Virus record (IMG/VR): IMGVR_UViG_3300025117_001650
Location: 1 to 23,041 of that record
Source of the DNA: a virus
Length of the DNA: 23,041 nucleotides
Direction: 5' to 3' (one strand)
A program made the position numbers and the translations under genes. The notes under the pieces are model-generated. The model was not told the DNA's origin and did no database searches. It saw only the letters and a list, made by a program, of their open reading frames with translations. Positions 2,276-21,911 of the stretch are shown here, in pieces. How positions within the stretch are numbered: position 1 is the first letter of the stretch; every line of letters begins with the position of its first letter.

Positions 2276-2285
2276 TATAAATATA
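2276..2285 (-). promoter_or_regulatory. Recurrent promoter-like motif TATATTTATA, upstream of fibre unit
   Basis: Exact copy (coding strand) of the motif also found at 9337, 9364, 13971, 17255 and 19741. It lies between the ligase-unit terminator and the 96-aa gene, where a new promoter would be expected. Its distance to the ATG (four bases) is unusually short. Confidence 0.45.
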
Positions 2286-2406: not shown

Positions 2407-2414
2407 TATTTATA
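2407..2414 (-). promoter_or_regulatory. TATAAATA octamer overlapping ligase stop (weak candidate)
   Basis: Exact match on the coding strand to the T4 late-promoter octamer, overlapping the TAA of the ligase gene. A transcript from here would meet the terminator at 2305..2324 before the fibre unit, and such octamers arise easily in AT-rich DNA. It is listed only as a possibility. Confidence 0.15.
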
Positions 2415-4338
2415 TCATTCTCAAGAATTCAATATCTGAAATGATTTTGACACCTAAATTTTTAGCCTTTTTAGTTTTACTACTTTGAGAATCTTTGTCA
2501 GTCTGGACAAGGTAAGTTAAGTCTTTTTTAACGTCAGTTTCAACCAATCCACCATTTTCAATTACTAATTGTTGAAGTTTTTCACGAGTATATCTTTCAT
2601 TGTTTTTATCAACAATTTCTACTTTTCCAGTAAAACAAAATGAATTTCCAGACAATTTATTACTATTTATAAAATTTACTGCATTCACAATATTATTTTG
2701 TATAGTGACATATTTCAATAAATTTGCTATGATATATTTTCTTTTATTAATTCCGTCAAGAAATGATTTAGCTGTTTTTTCTTCGATGCCCTTTATAGAT
2801 ATTAAATCATCTAATCTAATGTCAAGAATCTTATCTAAAGTATTATAACCACTATTTACTAATAACTCTACCATTCTTGATCCAAAGTTTTTAATATTTA
2901 ATCCAGCTATAAACTTGACTAAAGTCAAATTACTGTGAGTGTTTATTATTTCAATAATTTTTTCAGCGGATCTTTCTCCAAATCCATCGAGATGTCTAAT
3001 ATTATTAATATTTAATTTATACAAGTCAGATGGAATTATTATTAATCCAAGCTCATAAAATTTTTCTATTGTTTTTTCTCCAATTCCTTGAGTTCTCATT
3101 CCAGAAATACTGATCCATTTATTTAATATTCCAAGATTAAGTCCCTTACATTCTTCGTTATCGCACTGTAAAAATTTTCCATTAACTTTAAGAATTGAAT
3201 TACAACTTTCACAACACTTAGGATGTAAAAATAAATTACTTCCAACTCTCTTAATTACATTTTCTAAATATGGAATTACATCGTTTCTTCTACTAATTAA
3301 AACAATATCTCCTTTTGAAAGTTGGAAGTTTTTAAACATTTCATAATTGTGTAATGAAACTCTTTTTACTTCAACACTGCCGATTATAACTGGTTCAACT
3401 AACATTACTGGAGTCATTCTTCCATTACTTCCAAGTTGCCAAACAACATCATTTACAGTTGTCTGTTTTTTAGAAGATGTAAATTTAAAAGCCATAGCTC
3501 CCTTAGGTCTGTTATCTTTTTCTCCAAGATTGTTGTATTTGTTTATAATATCACATTCAATGACTAAACCATCAATTTCATAAGCTAAACTATTTCTTAT
3601 TTCATTTTCATAATCAGTATATAATTTATTTATTTGAGACATTTTAGAAATATTTTTAATATGAGCTGTTTCTAACCCAAATTTTTCTATATATTCAAAT
3701 TTATTTTTCTTTAGTTCAAATATACCGCTGCAATCATAATACATTATTGTCAAATATTCACTATATTTACCATCATATCTTTTAGATATCCCACCTGCGC
3801 CGTTTCTTAAATTTTTAATTGAAACTTCGTTTCTTTGTAGTTGAATTGATATTATTTCATTAAAATCTTTTTGTTTTAAAATAATTTCTCCTCGCAAAGA
3901 TCCAGTATAATTGTTTATTTTTAATTTTACATTTTTCATCTTTTTAACATTCTGAAAAATGTTCTCTCCAAAAATTCCATCACCCCTCGTGATAGCTTTA
4001 ATTAAATTTCCATTTTCATATTCAAGGTCAATACTTATGCCATCTAATTTTTCACTTACACATAACGTATCAATATTGTACTTGTTTATCCATTCAATAA
4101 ATTCACCAATATTCACAACCTTATTTAGGCTTCCCATTGGAATCTTGTGTCTCTCTTTTGTCCAAGAACTTACAGAAACTGGACTTCCAATAGTTTTAAG
4201 AAATGGATCATCTGGATATTTTAATTTAAACTCATCATATAATTTATCATATTCTTTGTCAGACATTATTGGATTAGACAAATTATAGTAGGTATCAGAT
4301 GCTTTTAAAAGTAATTGTTTAAGTTCTTCTTTATTCAT
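2410..4338 (-). CDS. ligA: NAD+-dependent DNA ligase (LigA)
   Basis: Seals 3'-OH/5'-phosphate nicks in duplex DNA using NAD+, probably at replication forks or in repair of phage DNA. The order of parts is complete: domain Ia with the NAD-binding phrase NPIMSDKEYD (residues 22-31), the adenylation motif EKLDGI with nucleophile Lys97, an OB-fold region, a four-Cys zinc finger (HPKCCESCNS to CDNEECKG), helix-hairpin-helix repeats (HLDGFGERSAEK; SIKGIEEKTAK) and a C-terminal BRCT domain beginning near FCFTGKVE. Its 642 residues are close to the usual ~670 for bacterial LigA, so it is not one of the minimal viral forms. The start overlaps the end of the 58-aa ORF by eight bases. It is the last gene of a four-gene unit closed by a terminator. 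An NAD-dependent rather than a T4-type ATP-dependent ligase is the less common choice for a T4-like phage. Confidence 0.97.
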   Translation of the reverse strand: MNKEELKQLLLKASDTYYNLSNPIMSDKEYDKLYDEFKLKYPDDPFLKTIGSPVSVSSWTKERHKIPMGSLNKVVNIGEFIEWINKYNIDTLCVSEKLDGISIDLEYENGNLIKAITRGDGIFGENIFQNVKKMKNVKLKINNYTGSLRGEIILKQKDFNEIISIQLQRNEVSIKNLRNGAGGISKRYDGKYSEYLTIMYYDCSGIFELKKNKFEYIEKFGLETAHIKNISKMSQINKLYTDYENEIRNSLAYEIDGLVIECDIINKYNNLGEKDNRPKGAMAFKFTSSKKQTTVNDVVWQLGSNGRMTPVMLVEPVIIGSVEVKRVSLHNYEMFKNFQLSKGDIVLISRRNDVIPYLENVIKRVGSNLFLHPKCCESCNSILKVNGKFLQCDNEECKGLNLGILNKWISISGMRTQGIGEKTIEKFYELGLIIIPSDLYKLNINNIRHLDGFGERSAEKIIEIINTHSNLTLVKFIAGLNIKNFGSRMVELLVNSGYNTLDKILDIRLDDLISIKGIEEKTAKSFLDGINKRKYIIANLLKYVTIQNNIVNAVNFINSNKLSGNSFCFTGKVEIVDKNNERYTREKLQQLVIENGGLVETDVKKDLTYLVQTDKDSQSSKTKKAKNLGVKIISDIEFLRMI

Positions 4339-5157: not shown

Positions 5158-6801
5158 TTAGATATTTAATTCGAATTTGTAATGGCCACAATCCCAAATT
5201 CTGTCAAAGCCATTTAACTGCATATTCTCCCATTCTGTTAGTTTTGGATTAAATGTTTTAAGCTTTTTTGAAAGAACATTTTTACGATAGTTGAAACGAT
5301 GAATTCTATCAATATACGCTTTTTTATTGACATACCAGTAATTGGGTGTTGTTTCTTTTATTAAATCAAATCCTATTTTCTTATATAAATTTCCATTAGA
5401 CCATCTTTTGTCAGCATAAGTAATGATTTTTTTTGGATGATAATTTTTGATGAAATGAGATAATAATTTTGATGCTATTCCAATTATATTTTTTGATGAA
5501 CAAAATCTTATGAGCTCATATTCATTTTTTACATCTCTAGATCCAAGAGAAATTCTTAGTTTTCCAAATGTCATTACTGAAATAAGTTCATTATTGTAAA
5601 ATGCACCAAGCCTAATAGAAGAATTATCAATTCCTTGAATATGATATTTTTGTAAAAATATATCTTTTTCGTGGACAGAAACTTCTTTTATTATACACTT
5701 TCTAGCATATATTTTTTCATCATTTAAATTAAAGATTGATATTAATCTTGATTTAACTATATCTTTTTTTAATCTCCATTCATCTTCAAAAATTTGAATT
5801 AACTGTATTTTATTGTCTTGACATATTTTTGTTTTTTTCAAATGATAGTTTTTGTCTTTATTACCACCCAATTCTGAATGATGATAATTTCCATTTGTTT
5901 CAATAGCAATTTTTCTTTTTTCTAAAAATATATCTAATTCAATTGATTTATTGTTTTCATCTCTTAAATATCTATATCTATGATATATGTTATCATTTAT
6001 GTTGATTGATTTTATAAATTCTATAATTTCTTTCTCAAATTTTGATGTTCCAATTGTAGGATTGCATTTAAAACAAATTGGATATTTTGCTTTTTGACTT
6101 ATATTTTTCTTACAAAATATAAAATTACATTGTAAACACTGAAATTTATTTTTTGTAATTTGTTCAAGTTTTGCAGTTTCTAAATATATATTAAATTTTT
6201 CTAATGATTTTTTCTTTTTTGTTTCTATAGATTTATTAATATTATTTTCTAATTGAAAGCCTATTCCTCCATATTTTTCTAATATAGTTTTCATAGCTTT
6301 TTTGTTATTAGCATAGAATTCATTTCCATATTTTTTTTTAAGAATTTCATTCATTTCCTTTGAGTGCCAAGCAAAAGCATTTTCATTACCATATTTTTTT
6401 AATTTAGTTTGTTTAATTTTTTCAATATTTATATAATTTTCATCTCCATATCTTTTTAATTTTGTTTGTTTAACTTTTTTTACAACTTCGGGTCTTTGAA
6501 AAATATATTCTACTCCATATTTTTCTTTATGTTTTCTTTTAACATTTTCATTATATTTATTTCTAAATTCTTCATCTTTTCTATATTTTTCCCATTTTAA
6601 TGTTTGTTGATGTGAAACTTGACATGAATGATTGTGATAAAAGTGTCTATCATCTTTTCTAAGAGTTTTATCGCAACTTGGATTTTTACATTTTTTTACT
6701 GGGATTTCATTTAACCAATTAAAATTATGTATTCTATTTAAATGAGATCTTAATCCTCTTAATGATTTATGTTCTTTATTGCAAAATTTACATTTATTCA
6801 T
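5158..6801 (-). CDS. Free-standing homing endonuclease, Vsr/PD-(D/E)XK-like with zinc finger
   Basis: Probably cuts a specific phage sequence to spread its own gene. Seen in order: a C2H2 finger (C4, C7, H20, H25); a second Cys/His cluster (residues 38-60); five DNA-binding-type repeats built on kKYGnE at residues 95, 118, 137, 158 and 177; a zinc ribbon (C222, C225, C243, C246); a nuclease core near 253-345 with IELD (D290), IAIETNG (E301) and HH307-308 followed by IFEDEW; and a C-terminal part (about 370-510) shaped like a GNAT fold (LGAFYNNELISVMTFG; GIASKLLSHF; YADKRWSNGNLYKKIGF). This architecture matches large phage endonucleases such as cyanophage PD-(D/E)XK enzymes. It sits alone between the sheath terminator and the ligase unit, with a hairpin 15 bases before its ATG and no strong ribosome site. 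Family-level confidence is high; the target site is unknown. Confidence 0.88.
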   Translation of the reverse strand: MNKCKFCNKEHKSLRGLRSHLNRIHNFNWLNEIPVKKCKNPSCDKTLRKDDRHFYHNHSCQVSHQQTLKWEKYRKDEEFRNKYNENVKRKHKEKYGVEYIFQRPEVVKKVKQTKLKRYGDENYINIEKIKQTKLKKYGNENAFAWHSKEMNEILKKKYGNEFYANNKKAMKTILEKYGGIGFQLENNINKSIETKKKKSLEKFNIYLETAKLEQITKNKFQCLQCNFIFCKKNISQKAKYPICFKCNPTIGTSKFEKEIIEFIKSININDNIYHRYRYLRDENNKSIELDIFLEKRKIAIETNGNYHHSELGGNKDKNYHLKKTKICQDNKIQLIQIFEDEWRLKKDIVKSRLISIFNLNDEKIYARKCIIKEVSVHEKDIFLQKYHIQGIDNSSIRLGAFYNNELISVMTFGKLRISLGSRDVKNEYELIRFCSSKNIIGIASKLLSHFIKNYHPKKIITYADKRWSNGNLYKKIGFDLIKETTPNYWYVNKKAYIDRIHRFNYRKNVLSKKLKTFNPKLTEWENMQLNGFDRIWDCGHYKFELNI

Positions 6802-9336: not shown

Positions 9337-9346
9337 TATAAATATA
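9337..9346 (-). promoter_or_regulatory. Promoter-like motif TATATTTATA before sheath (proximal copy)
   Basis: Exact motif copy 35 bases before the GTG start of the sheath gene, inside the 92-base gap that separates it from the coiled-coil gene. No ORF or terminator is visible in that gap. Confidence 0.5.
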
Positions 9347-9363: not shown

Positions 9364-9373
9364 TATAAATATA
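9364..9373 (-). promoter_or_regulatory. Promoter-like motif TATATTTATA before sheath (distal copy)
   Basis: Second exact copy, 27 bases upstream of the proximal one. Two copies in front of the sheath gene would fit strong expression of a high-copy structural protein, if the motif is a promoter. Confidence 0.4.
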
Positions 9374-12286: not shown

Positions 12287-13132
12287 TTAAGCATTTCCGG
12301 GATTAAAAAAATTAAAAGTATAAACAGATTGCTCGTCAATAACTACAAGCACGGTATTTGTAATAGAAACTGGAATTTTATTATTTAAAATAATACTATT
12401 TATATTTTTAACAAATTCAGACTGTATTATTATTTTAGCTGGAGATAAGATCTTTATCGTTGTGTCTCTATTGTTAAAAGATTCTGGAATTATATAAGCA
12501 TTTACATTCATTGTAAAAGTATCTGTTACACTTCTATTATCATTATCAGTAACTTCTATAACATTATTTATATTATCATAATTTGCACGAAACTTATAGT
12601 ATTTATCTCCCCAATAACTACCCTCAGCATAAACAAATTTTTCTATGATACTGTTCATCTGTCTAATGTATGCAGTCCAGATTTTTACTTCATAGTTAAC
12701 ATTTACATAATCTGGAACAGTCACCGAATAATGAACTTTAGAAGGACTTAACTTATTTGCTAAAGAAAATATGTCGTACCTATTTTTCGTATCATATCCT
12801 GATGAAATAGTTCTTCTAAGGTTTCCATCCATCTTGTCCATAGTCATGGTTGAACTTTTAGCAATATCTCCTCTTGATATTACTAAAACTGGAACTAATA
12901 TTTGTTTTGTATTTTCGTCACGAAACCATCCATCAGCTTGAATAGACTTCCATCTCTCAGGATTTGCAAAATAACAAGGGACTGTTGTTGATTTATTATT
13001 TTCTACAATTTCTGGTTTAATTGTATTTTTAATGTGTCTTAATATTGCTTCATCAACATCTTCGATTTTAATACAAATATTTCTTACAGTATCAGTATCT
13101 CGTCTAAGTTGATTTATTCTGTTTTCATACAT
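12287..13132 (-). CDS. Tail terminator / proximal sheath stabiliser (T4 gp15-like)
   Basis: Probably caps the tail tube and joins it to the neck. The layout follows T4 gp15 (281 residues here, 272 in T4): an early VPCYFANPERW corresponding to gp15 VPITYASKEHF, a long strand ILVPVLVISRGDIA, then a central VNYEVKIWTAYIRQMNSIIEKF corresponding to YELSIFTRYEDDMFQIVEQI, and a strand TFTMNVNAYIIPE near the end like gp15 LTFEVNGWMYPP. These matches are of pattern rather than close identity. Position between gp13/gp14-like genes and the sheath fits the T4 order. The start is ATG at 13132, eleven bases after the previous stop. Confidence 0.62.
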   Translation of the reverse strand: MYENRINQLRRDTDTVRNICIKIEDVDEAILRHIKNTIKPEIVENNKSTTVPCYFANPERWKSIQADGWFRDENTKQILVPVLVISRGDIAKSSTMTMDKMDGNLRRTISSGYDTKNRYDIFSLANKLSPSKVHYSVTVPDYVNVNYEVKIWTAYIRQMNSIIEKFVYAEGSYWGDKYYKFRANYDNINNVIEVTDNDNRSVTDTFTMNVNAYIIPESFNNRDTTIKILSPAKIIIQSEFVKNINSIILNNKIPVSITNTVLVVIDEQSVYTFNFFNPGNA

Positions 13133-13143
13133 AATAAAATAAA

Positions 13144-13950
13144 TTAATCCAAAATAATAAGTAGTGACGCTGTCGCGAAACTCAACTCATCATCAGTGGT
13201 TACTGCAACAGATGATGAAAGGGCTCCATAAACTAAAACATTTCCTGTAGAACCAGAATCACATAAAGCTGCACTTACAACTGTTCCCCAATCTGTAGAT
13301 GATGCTGTTGCAAATGTTGCTGTCCCATAATTATGAGTTCCTGCAGTTGAAGCTGTTGCCCATAAATCATGAGAAAGTCTTGAATAATTAGATCCAGTTA
13401 CTGAAGGTATATTTGTTCCTGTCATAGAACCAGTTATGCTTCCAGTTGTAAGTGCTATAAAAATAGATGACGTCATCGGATAACTGATACCTTTAAAAGT
13501 ATGATCTATCATTTTATTTGCGATAAATGTAGAAAATCCACCATTCAATACTTCTATTGATAATTGATTGATTCCTACTCTTACAGTATCACCAGCATTT
13601 ATTGTTTTAGATGTTGCCAGCGGACAGTGAGCAAGCATATTGCCACCAGTTTTTGCATCAAACAGGGCAGCACTTATAACTGTTCCCCATCCTGGTGCAG
13701 TAGACTGAGTAAAAGTAATCTGAACATCATTTAATTTAATTCTATTTGCTGCAGGAGTTCCAAAGGCATCGTCGCATATCGAACGAGTATATGCGCCGCC
13801 TAAATTTACAGGTTCATATATTCCCGTTCCGTCATCAGCAATACTTGACGTTGATAGAGCAAGATAAATTTGTGTTGGTTGAGTAAATGCCGTGTTGCCT
13901 ACGATATGATCAAGCCATTTAAGTTCTGTATAATCTGTAATAGTTGCTAT
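13144..13950 (-). CDS. Two-domain tail-fibre-type protein starting at ATA
   Basis: The frame is open far upstream of its first ATG (13638). The missing 104 codons encode a well-formed domain beginning ATITDYTELKWLDHIVGNT. Just before it the coding strand has GGAG seven bases from ATA (13950..13948), and an in-frame TAA lies upstream, so ATA (or ATT two codons earlier) must be the start. The 268-residue product holds two copies of a phage domain often annotated as tail fibre: PTQIYLALSTSS ... WGTVISAALFDAKTGGNML ... SKTINAGDTVRV, and SSIFIALTTGS ... WGTVVSAALCDSGSTGNVL ... VTTDDELSF. Both end in a beta strand. It is likely a neck or tail decoration or fibre component. A motif copy and a TATAAATA lie just upstream. 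Confidence 0.82.
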   Translation of the reverse strand: MATITDYTELKWLDHIVGNTAFTQPTQIYLALSTSSIADDGTGIYEPVNLGGAYTRSICDDAFGTPAANRIKLNDVQITFTQSTAPGWGTVISAALFDAKTGGNMLAHCPLATSKTINAGDTVRVGINQLSIEVLNGGFSTFIANKMIDHTFKGISYPMTSSIFIALTTGSITGSMTGTNIPSVTGSNYSRLSHDLWATASTAGTHNYGTATFATASSTDWGTVVSAALCDSGSTGNVLVYGALSSSVAVTTDDELSFATASLLIILD

Positions 13951-13957
13951 TTTAATT

Positions 13958-13961
13958 CTCC
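13958..13961 (-). promoter_or_regulatory. Ribosome binding site that points to the ATA start
   Basis: GGAG on the coding strand, seven bases before ATA at 13950. The same spacing and sequence class are seen before the GTG start of the sheath, the TTG start at 17236 and the ATG at 19705, which supports initiation here rather than at the internal ATG at 13638. Confidence 0.7.
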
Positions 13962-13970
13962 GTTTTTATT

Positions 13971-13980
13971 TATAAATATA
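13971..13980 (-). promoter_or_regulatory. Promoter-like motif TATATTTATA before two-domain fibre gene
   Basis: Exact motif copy, overlapping by four bases a T4-type TATAAATA octamer on the coding strand (13967..13974). It lies 20 bases before the ATA start, in the 42-base gap after the gp14-like gene. Confidence 0.5.
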
Positions 13981-13992
13981 ATTTTATTTTTT

Positions 13993-14454
13993 TTATTGAA
14001 TTCTTTCACTAAGATTTGTCAAACTTATATTTGAGAGATGAGCCAAACAAATAAAACTCCAAGTATGCTCTTCACCAGGTCTTTTAGCAATTTTCTGATC
14101 TTCTTGAACATTGTTTATTTCATATATTGTTTCTTGCCACTCTATCACATCTCCAATTTCTGGATAACTTCCTTTTTGTCTCATCATTTCTCTGTTTATT
14201 GCAACTATTATTCCTTGTTTTACATTCTGTCCGAATTCATTTACAGAAATTAATGGAGTATCTGATTTTATTAGACAATTAATTCTGATTCCTGTATAAT
14301 ATTTTTTATTTACGCTTTCTCCATATATATCTTTAGTATCAGAATTTGCTATTGATACCTTAAATATAGTCACTTCTGTCTCTATGACATCATTGATTAA
14401 CTCATTGTTTATATTGTAAAAAAAGCGTAAGTCTTTTTCTGTTACAAATCTCAT
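13993..14454 (-). CDS. Candidate neck protein, T4 gp14-like (153 aa)
   Basis: Begins MRFVTEKDLRFFYNINNELI, followed by IYGESVNKKYYTGI, NEFGQNVKQGIIVAINREMM and PEIGDVIEWQETIYEINNVQED. The sequence of a small-beta region, FG..., a strand, then GD-[IL]-hydrophobic and YEIN-V matches the core of T4 gp14 ([29 protein letters not shown]), though it is shorter (153 against 256). gp14 forms the neck with gp13 and joins the filled head to the tail. Placement between gp13-like and gp15-like genes supports this. An alternative is a head-closure or connector protein of another class. Confidence 0.5.
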   Translation of the reverse strand: MRFVTEKDLRFFYNINNELINDVIETEVTIFKVSIANSDTKDIYGESVNKKYYTGIRINCLIKSDTPLISVNEFGQNVKQGIIVAINREMMRQKGSYPEIGDVIEWQETIYEINNVQEDQKIAKRPGEEHTWSFICLAHLSNISLTNLSERIQ

Positions 14455-16007: not shown

Positions 16008-16054
16008 ATTTCACTTTAAAAATTTTATAAATAGCATATCTATGTTGTAACATT

Positions 16055-17254: not shown

Positions 17255-17264
17255 TATAAATATA
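17255..17264 (-). promoter_or_regulatory. Promoter-like motif TATATTTATA before gp13-like gene
   Basis: Exact copy in the 33-base gap between the 99-aa gene and the gp13-like TTG start, 18 bases upstream of the start and just before the AAGGA ribosome site. Confidence 0.5.
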
Positions 17265-18352: not shown

Positions 18353-19705
18353 TTACGGATTAGAATAATTTCTTTCAAGAGGAGCTACTAAAGAAACAGC
18401 ATTGCTTATACTTCTTCCAATAGTTCCAGCTGCTTTAACAAACTGTGCTGTTGATAAACCAATTGCAACAGCAGTTATTGGCGCATCACTTCCTGAAGAA
18501 TCTGTTCCTCTTTGTATGTTTGTATCATAATTATATGATAATTGAACACTTGAACTTGCAGCTATATTATTTGTCATATTTGCACTATTTGCATCTTGAG
18601 CTATTATTGCATTTGCTGTTCCATAATCTTGTCCAGTATTATTACCTGCATCATCATTTGTAAAATATATCCAATATTTTGCAGAAGAATCGTTTACTAA
18701 GTTATCACCAAAGCTTAATGTTAATACTGAAGTAAATGGGAATGTTCTTTCAGAACCAGTATCATCAACAAATATTAATCTATTAATATCTGCAGATTGA
18801 TAGTTGTCTATAAAAGCACCACCTTCACTTTGTAAAATTGTATATAATGTATCACCAACAAATTTTAAAATAGAAGTTGTAGTTTTTCCAATATGTATTG
18901 TACTGCCAGAATCTATATCTACATTTTGTCGTAATTGATATTGAACTCCAGTATATATTTCTTCTGCTGTTTTATTTTTACCATCTATAATAACATGAAA
19001 ATCCCTATTTGTTCCACCTATATCTCGCTGTTGTGATGAAGTATAATATGTAATTCCAATATCATATAATGATGCTGTTGAATCATCAACAGTTACTTTA
19101 GGATCAGCATTTGTAGCAAGTGGAAAACGATATGCTTGATAAGTTAATGATGTAGCACCAATATCTGATAGTTGTGAATATGCATAAACATCACCTTGTT
19201 CTCTTGCAAAAATTTTGAAATAATTTCTATAATCAAATGTTCCTGATTCGTATACTAATACGGCTTCATTAACAGCATCACTTCTAGACATTACTGTAGA
19301 TGCGCTTGCTGCTGTCCCACTTCCAGACTGTTGATAATACACTTGTGTGCCACCAATTAATGATCCAAGTGATATAATTCCAGTCCATTCTTCTGTAGAT
19401 ATACCATTAGCATCTTTTAATGCCCAACCTGCATTTCTAATGAGTTTTTTAGTATCTACATCAAATAAATTCCACCCATTTACAAACTCAAACTGTTCAT
19501 CAGTAATAGGACCCATTGGAAATGGAAATTTAATTAAATTTGCATCATTTTTCCATTCTTCTTTTAAAAATGAATATAATGCTTTACCAGTAACTCCATC
19601 TCCAGATAGATTTCCTGAAATGAATAAATCTATTTTTTTTGTCGTTGTATTTATTGAAACTTCTACATTCTGATTTAAAAAATCGGGATCTATTATAAGT
19701 GCCAT
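18353..19705 (-). CDS. Conserved virion structural protein, SFLKEEW/FPFP type (450 aa)
   Basis: Carries the set ALYSFLKEEWKNDANLIKFP, GPITDEQFEFVNGW, LIRNAGWALKDANG, YAGII-like TGIISLGSL, QVYYQQSGSG, FDYRNYFKIFAREQGD and LTYQAYRFPLATN. I associate these with a large phage structural family commonly found beside the DLYSDWK protein. The C-terminal half is beta-rich with Asp/Ser/Thr loops (TGSERTFPFTSVLTLSFGD), consistent with an adhesion or baseplate appendage. The start ATG has GGAG eight bases upstream and a motif copy 35 bases upstream, so a transcription unit probably begins here. The particle position is not established. Confidence 0.8.
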   Translation of the reverse strand: MALIIDPDFLNQNVEVSINTTTKKIDLFISGNLSGDGVTGKALYSFLKEEWKNDANLIKFPFPMGPITDEQFEFVNGWNLFDVDTKKLIRNAGWALKDANGISTEEWTGIISLGSLIGGTQVYYQQSGSGTAASASTVMSRSDAVNEAVLVYESGTFDYRNYFKIFAREQGDVYAYSQLSDIGATSLTYQAYRFPLATNADPKVTVDDSTASLYDIGITYYTSSQQRDIGGTNRDFHVIIDGKNKTAEEIYTGVQYQLRQNVDIDSGSTIHIGKTTTSILKFVGDTLYTILQSEGGAFIDNYQSADINRLIFVDDTGSERTFPFTSVLTLSFGDNLVNDSSAKYWIYFTNDDAGNNTGQDYGTANAIIAQDANSANMTNNIAASSSVQLSYNYDTNIQRGTDSSGSDAPITAVAIGLSTAQFVKAAGTIGRSISNAVSLVAPLERNYSNP

Positions 19706-19740: not shown

Positions 19741-19750
19741 TATAAATATA
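19741..19750 (-). promoter_or_regulatory. Promoter-like motif TATATTTATA before 450-aa virion gene
   Basis: Exact copy in the 59-base gap between the 535-aa and 450-aa genes, 35 bases before the ATG, the same distance as the proximal copy has from the sheath start. Confidence 0.5.
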
Positions 19751-21375: not shown

Positions 21376-21891
21376 TTATTTATTCTTAAGTAATTCAAAT
21401 ATATTTACATCTTCAGTTAAAGAAGTTAAAAATTTACCCTTAACTGAATTACATCTATGTTCTAATTTTTTAGATATAATAATTCTATCTCCTGTTTTTG
21501 GAGGTATTGTTTCATAATCAAATATTATAGCAGGCAAATTTACTTTAGATATTATATCTAATATAATATTTTTTCCAGATGTAAGTGCTGCATTTTGAGA
21601 TAATTCTATTATAGTTATCCAATCAAATCCTTCTAATCTATCTATACTCACCATAATACCATTTTTATCTGGTCTATCATTTTCAGCACCAAAACCCCTT
21701 AACCATGAGCATTGATATGAATTACAAACATTTGGTCTTTCTAGTTTACCATATATTGCACATCCATTACATTGATACTTACATTTCTGAAACGAAGGTT
21801 TAAAAAAATTATTTTCTCGTATTTCAGCAACCTCACAACAAACTTCACACTCTTTACACTGTCTAATTTTATAAACTCTTTTTAAAATTAT
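21376..21891 (-). CDS. CxxCxxCC metal-cluster protein with disrupted or non-ATG start
   Basis: The first in-frame ATG (21654) would give only 92 residues, but the frame is open to 21897 and encodes a clear N-terminal domain: C-x2-C-x2-CC (Cys12, 15, 18, 19 counting from ATA at 21891), then KPSFQKCKYQCNGCAIYG (Cys37, 41, 44) and RPNVCNSYQC (Cys56, 61). This is the pattern of the YkgJ-like putative zinc- or iron-chelating family. No ATG, GTG or TTG exists in frame at the 5' end. Instead a well-placed ATG (21910, two bases after the previous stop codon) begins a frame that ends at 21869 and would join this one if a single base were absent from the A5/T4 run at 21879..21887. So either ATA starts it, or the gene has a one-base insertion. 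Function is unknown; metal binding is likely. Confidence 0.78.
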   Translation of the reverse strand: MILKRVYKIRQCKECEVCCEVAEIRENNFFKPSFQKCKYQCNGCAIYGKLERPNVCNSYQCSWLRGFGAENDRPDKNGIMVSIDRLEGFDWITIIELSQNAALTSGKNIILDIISKVNLPAIIFDYETIPPKTGDRIIISKKLEHRCNSVKGKFLTSLTEDVNIFELLKNK

Positions 21892-21911
21892 TAGAAATTA
21901 TAACTAACATT

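Follow-up and report, generated by a model that had tools for sequence, protein, structure and literature searches.

A virion gene with an ATA at its start

The window, that is, the whole stretch of DNA analyzed here, is a virus record of 23,041 bases with a G+C content of 28.6%, in which nearly all genes are on the minus strand. Its genes for tail sheath, neck and endolysin are those of a T4-like phage. The sheath protein is 75% and 68% identical to those encoded in two contigs (L009 and L010, respectively), and the best named relative is Microcystis phage Mel-JY01 (43%). Genes for an NAD-dependent DNA ligase and an HNH homing endonuclease (2410-4338 and 5158-6801) adjoin the virion gene cluster. 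Several unrelated small genes (14763 in the window; also 12363-13829 in L010) have the same N-terminus, MKKSELKKIIKEEL, seemingly a shared leader for targeting or packaging. Scans for Rfam families, tRNAs and terminators returned nothing, and the matches in a sigma-70 scan were at chance level.

The gene of interest here (Table 1) was described in the first-pass annotation as a virion gene with a full N-terminal domain upstream of its first ATG, and both points are borne out by profile searches. The protein matches the Gp80 family, PF23140, twice in tandem (E=2.9e-53), with the two copies spanning approximately residues 2-135 and 138-268; the score of 180 bits, against a gathering cut-off of 27 bits, places it within the family, and residues 4-132 cover positions 2-127 of the 128 in the profile. 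The PHROG match is PHROG 240, 'head protein'. A relative of solved structure, PDB 8jou ('virion-associated phage protein'), aligns with domain 1 residue 2 to residue 2, in accord with the proposed start position. On the strength of these sequence matches, the assignment of the product as a virion-associated, fiber- or head-type protein holds. Most of the homologs that we fetched contain a single copy of the domain, whereas a few (L043, L044, L005) share the tandem duplication. An AlphaFold model derived from a 12-sequence alignment (mean pLDDT 83.5) shows order from residue 2 onward, with a strand followed by a helix at residues 6-18 (pLDDT 86 for the first block); domain 2 has this helix again at 141-153. 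If translation began at codon 105, only the last hairpin of domain 1 would be spared.

The minus-strand frame is uninterrupted from 13965 to 13144, with all 268 codons from the ATA intact, so that the open frame upstream of the first ATG, the GGAG at a spacing of 7 and the TAA that precludes a longer gene are all present exactly as originally reported. Only five codons (AAA CGG AGA ATT AAA) separate the TAA from the ATA; there is no in-frame ATG, GTG, TTG or CTG within this interval, and no ATG, GTG or TTG between the ATA and codon 105. The earlier statement that either ATA or ATT lies at the right distance holds for ATA but not for ATT: given that the ATT at 13956 is only 1 nt from GGAG and the one at codon 4 is 16 nt from it, ATA is the sole well-placed start codon. 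Pairing of this GGAG with the anti-Shine-Dalgarno sequence is predicted at -6.6 kcal/mol, the second strongest value among the window starts examined, and the 63 nt around the ATA are predicted to be nearly unstructured (-0.5 kcal/mol). In the coding DNA of the window, ATH occupies 9.7% of the codon positions, and in 5.1% of these cases a strong Shine-Dalgarno core is suitably spaced; the chance of finding this combination at a pre-specified codon is therefore about 0.5%. The strongest Shine-Dalgarno sites, in what is a small set of genes, include those of the GTG start of the sheath gene (9301) and the TTG start of a neck gene (17236) along with that of the gp80-like gene (13950).

Upstream of the Shine-Dalgarno site, there is a copy of the element TATTTATA, whose reverse complement is TATAAATA, the late promoter box of T4. 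Seven of its nine minus-strand copies are located upstream of gene starts in non-coding DNA, which makes up 8% of the window, compared to 0.6 expected, and this number was reached in none of 2000 simulations. In many relatives, virion genes have the same element ahead of them, with a Shine-Dalgarno site and usually an ATG after it. It is likely to be a late-promoter element of this phage group, a role to which its placement points, and the copy ahead of the gp80-like gene suggests that transcription would begin just upstream of the ATA.

Table 1. Features of the two genes and of the promoter-like element in the window
Feature	Position	Strand	Basis or remark
gp80-like virion gene, 268 codons, start codon ATA	13144..13950	-	frame, Pfam, PHROG, PDB 8jou, model
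ATA start codon	13948..13950	-	aligned with homolog ATG
Shine-Dalgarno core GGAG	13958..13961	-	spacer AATTAAA (7 nt) to ATA
In-frame TAA, rules out a longer gene	13966..13968	-	sequence
First in-frame ATG (codon 105, within domain 1), rejected as start	13636..13638	-	domains, model
Promoter-like TATTTATA	13971..13978	-	20 nt upstream of ATA
TATTTATA upstream of gene starts	13971-13978, 16026-16033, 17255-17262, 19741-19748, 9337-9344, 9364-9371, 2276-2283	-	motif scan
Second gene, Cys-rich CxxCxxCC-like protein (phrog_9155), 163 codons, probable start ATT 21867-21865	21376..21867	-	homologs
Weak Shine-Dalgarno AAGAG	21876..21880	-	8-nt spacer to ATT
13-codon ORF, ATG at 21910	21869..21910	-	sequence

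Homologs, gene context and a second gene

When the N-terminus of the gp80-like protein was aligned to those of 87 homologs from phage records and viral contigs, the ATG of the homolog coincided exactly with the ATA in 74 cases and was found one codon later in nine and one codon earlier in four. Thus, the comparison proposed in the first-pass annotation, a search for ATG at the aligned codon, yields an ATG within one codon of this position in 87 of 87 homologs. All these homologs start with ATG and none with ATA, so the ATA start is not conserved; among AUH-start genes, conservation is a supporting rather than a necessary feature. The relatives in the phage collection are all less than 60% identical to the window protein, and no close relative of the gene turned up in searches of viral contigs and bacterial genomes; the ATA is therefore known from one metagenome contig, which is the chief reservation about it.

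The gene is flanked by two conserved neck/tail genes (14454..13993 and 13132..12287). In none of the 90 related loci that keep both neighbors is a gp80-like gene found between them; the inserts present there in some of these loci are other proteins or longer neighbors, and in the nearest relative, L010, the two neighbors are 15 nt apart, as measured between alignment ends. The gene was not found anywhere in the complete contigs of the six relatives that were searched either. Given this absence from related loci, it was either gained by the lineage of the window or lost by the others.

A second gene had been reported to have the same start problem. The gene indeed exists and appears to lack an NTG start, but the ATA at 21891 that had been assigned as its first codon is rejected in favor of the ATT at 21867, where homologs place the start. 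The protein matches phrog_9155 (2e-7). Its homologs score 15.9-16.1 bits against the CxxCxxCC family PF03692, below the cut-off of 23 and hence outside the family, and the Pfam search gave no PF03692 match for the window protein itself. The initial methionine of the homologs from contig L042 (MRNCGECNVCC) and Synechococcus phage S-SRM01 (MRECRECTACC) falls exactly on the ATT (IRQCKECEVCC), without any upstream extension, and a third homolog, in L124, begins one residue earlier; the L042 homolog also adjoins a relative of the window gene at 18353. Immediately upstream, a 13-codon ORF opens one base past the TAA of the previous gene and closes 1 nt before the ATT. This ORF could be a coupling leader or else the true N-terminus of the protein, severed by a one-base frameshift in an A/T run. 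Indeed, an ATG one base after the preceding stop, such as the one at 21910, is a usual gene junction in this phage, and a single-base shift in the TTTTAAAAA run, whether an error, a mutation or +1 frameshifting, would suffice to bring the ORF into the main frame of the second gene. Against a true start at the ATG stand the starts of all three homologs and the Shine-Dalgarno site ahead of the ATT. We regard this possibility as a serious one but rather short of even, and give initiation at the ATT about an even chance or slightly better.

Two features of AUH-start genes are seen in both genes: no NTG intervenes from the preceding stop to the conserved N-terminus, and an AUH codon with a Shine-Dalgarno site occupies the position of the homolog start, with the site of the second gene being the weaker one. 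We looked, in 1233 genes from relatives and homolog-bearing contigs, for conserved starts that lack an NTG, and only the two window genes are convincing cases. The two surveys flagged 18 and 25 genes, respectively, and the other flagged genes listed were dismissed as small start shifts or partial alignments. The list from the second survey comprised flagged genes in which concordant homologs did not outnumber discordant ones; the gp80-like gene, which is listed in the first survey, was filtered from it, probably via its second-domain alignments. In bacteria, a single AUG-to-AUU switch, and no listed AUA, was identified among 61,358 ancestral AUG starts (PMC5622118). Given such rarity, two AUH starts in one fragment suggest something specific to this phage or this contig, although the second gene is less certain.

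Competing explanations for the ATA

So what could account for the ATA? An altered genetic code in which AUA stands for methionine can be rejected: among 103 aligned internal ATA codons, the majority residue is isoleucine at 32 and methionine at 5. Inside genes, AUA is isoleucine; the code is therefore the standard one, and no code change is needed. Another candidate, that translation starts at Met 105 or that ribosomes enter the frame by shifting from the gene upstream, has in its favor that the first ATG is indeed at 13638 and that the frame across the spacer has no stop before a TAG that shares bases with the ATA. Met 105, however, is inside domain 1, the homologs are free-standing genes that begin at the ATA position, and fusion to the upstream gene would require two frameshifts. 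Both versions were rejected as candidates, and we consider this possibility very improbable. The two alternatives that were named at the outset, a point mutation from ATG and a sequence error, are both still live. The ATA could be an error of sequencing or assembly, or the consensus could have picked up a variant from a minor strain, with the population carrying ATG. It is known from a single contig without a replicate, one substitution from ATG would suffice, and, with consensus errors at a rate of 1e-4, one or more of the 23 starts would be lost with a probability of 0.5%, which is on a par with how rare AUA starts are in nature. However, the second gene appears equally defective, and two start errors at the same rate have a probability of about 1e-5. 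An error rate capable of hitting two starts is unlikely because many premature stops would be expected, and none was seen in 7026 codons. That only two such cases turned up among the 1233 related genes, which come from comparable contigs, also speaks against an error, and on balance we think it unlikely, albeit well worth keeping in mind.

If the substitution is real, it might have silenced the gene, so that an accessory protein has been lost and the frame has not yet decayed. Compatible with such a loss, the gene is accessory, being missing from this slot in the related loci and, in the nearest relatives, from the contig as a whole, and no close homolog shows selection on the ATA form. Nevertheless, the frame, the Shine-Dalgarno site and the promoter-like element are all intact. 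Furthermore, full silencing is unlikely given that, in bacteria, an AUA behind a good Shine-Dalgarno site has measurable activity (PMC13009471), and we hold this outcome to be improbable. Only marginally less so is a relaxed start-codon discrimination in the phage lineage or its host, such that AUH codons are ordinary starts; if this were the case, the AUA and AUU accessory genes within 23 kb, beside the GTG and TTG virion starts, would be its footprint. We consider it probable that the start of an acquired, accessory late virion gene underwent a natural change from AUG to AUA and that the gene is weakly translated from a good Shine-Dalgarno site. Under this hypothesis, the gp80-like gene would have entered a T4-like phage between two conserved genes of the neck/tail type, and its ancestral AUG would have changed to AUA, which would be real in the phage and in use. 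Ribosomes would bind the strong GGAG, assisted by the open leader, and fMet-tRNA would initiate on AUA through a third-position mismatch, giving the full-length two-domain protein at a lower yield, perhaps 10-30% of that from AUG by analogy with Staphylococcus aureus. IF3 disfavors weak third-position pairs, and the yield would therefore be lowered (PMC10158994).

Weak start codons in phages and bacteria

The gp80 ATA would join the known, rare class of weak AUA/AUU starts and would not be a new mechanism. In S. aureus, infC, ccpN and citZ start with AUA and cvfC1 with AUU, likewise in combination with a Shine-Dalgarno site, and reporters with these starts yield about 10% of the AUG level, and up to 30% for ccpN, so that initiation is reduced but measured (PMC13009471). 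Unlike the phage genes of the window, these are bacterial genes with starts proven by ribosome profiling and reporters, and the non-canonical starts of ccpN and cvfC1 are conserved in relatives whereas those of the window are not (PMC13009471). A strain with an ATG>ATA change in rpoS still produced RpoS, up to 5-fold less (PMC12864459). In Escherichia coli, infC and pcnB have AUU starts, as cited in PMC13009471 and PMC2268962; there, a near-cognate AUH start limits expression, as we propose for the window genes, but the regulatory role of the start codon is established for the E. coli genes and not for those of the window. The Gp80 family (Podophage GP4 fiber I protein; PDB 8jou) is matched over the whole domain from residue 2, and the window protein differs from it in having two tandem copies, in belonging to a contractile-tailed T4-like phage and in starting with ATA rather than ATG. 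A parallel by type of gene is gene 26 of T4, a virion gene of a T4-type phage with an internal AUU start; the AUU in that gene yields an additional internal product, whereas the ATA of the gp80-like gene would be the sole start.

Gene finders that accept ATG, GTG and TTG would shorten the gp80-like protein to 164 residues or miss the start. AUH starts are seldom noticed because few analyses look for them, and a homolog-anchored scan provides a simple route to such starts in phage genomes, and a way of distinguishing errors from weak starts. Should both cases hold, a single phage with two AUH genes would be a natural test of the compensation of a poor start codon by the Shine-Dalgarno site.
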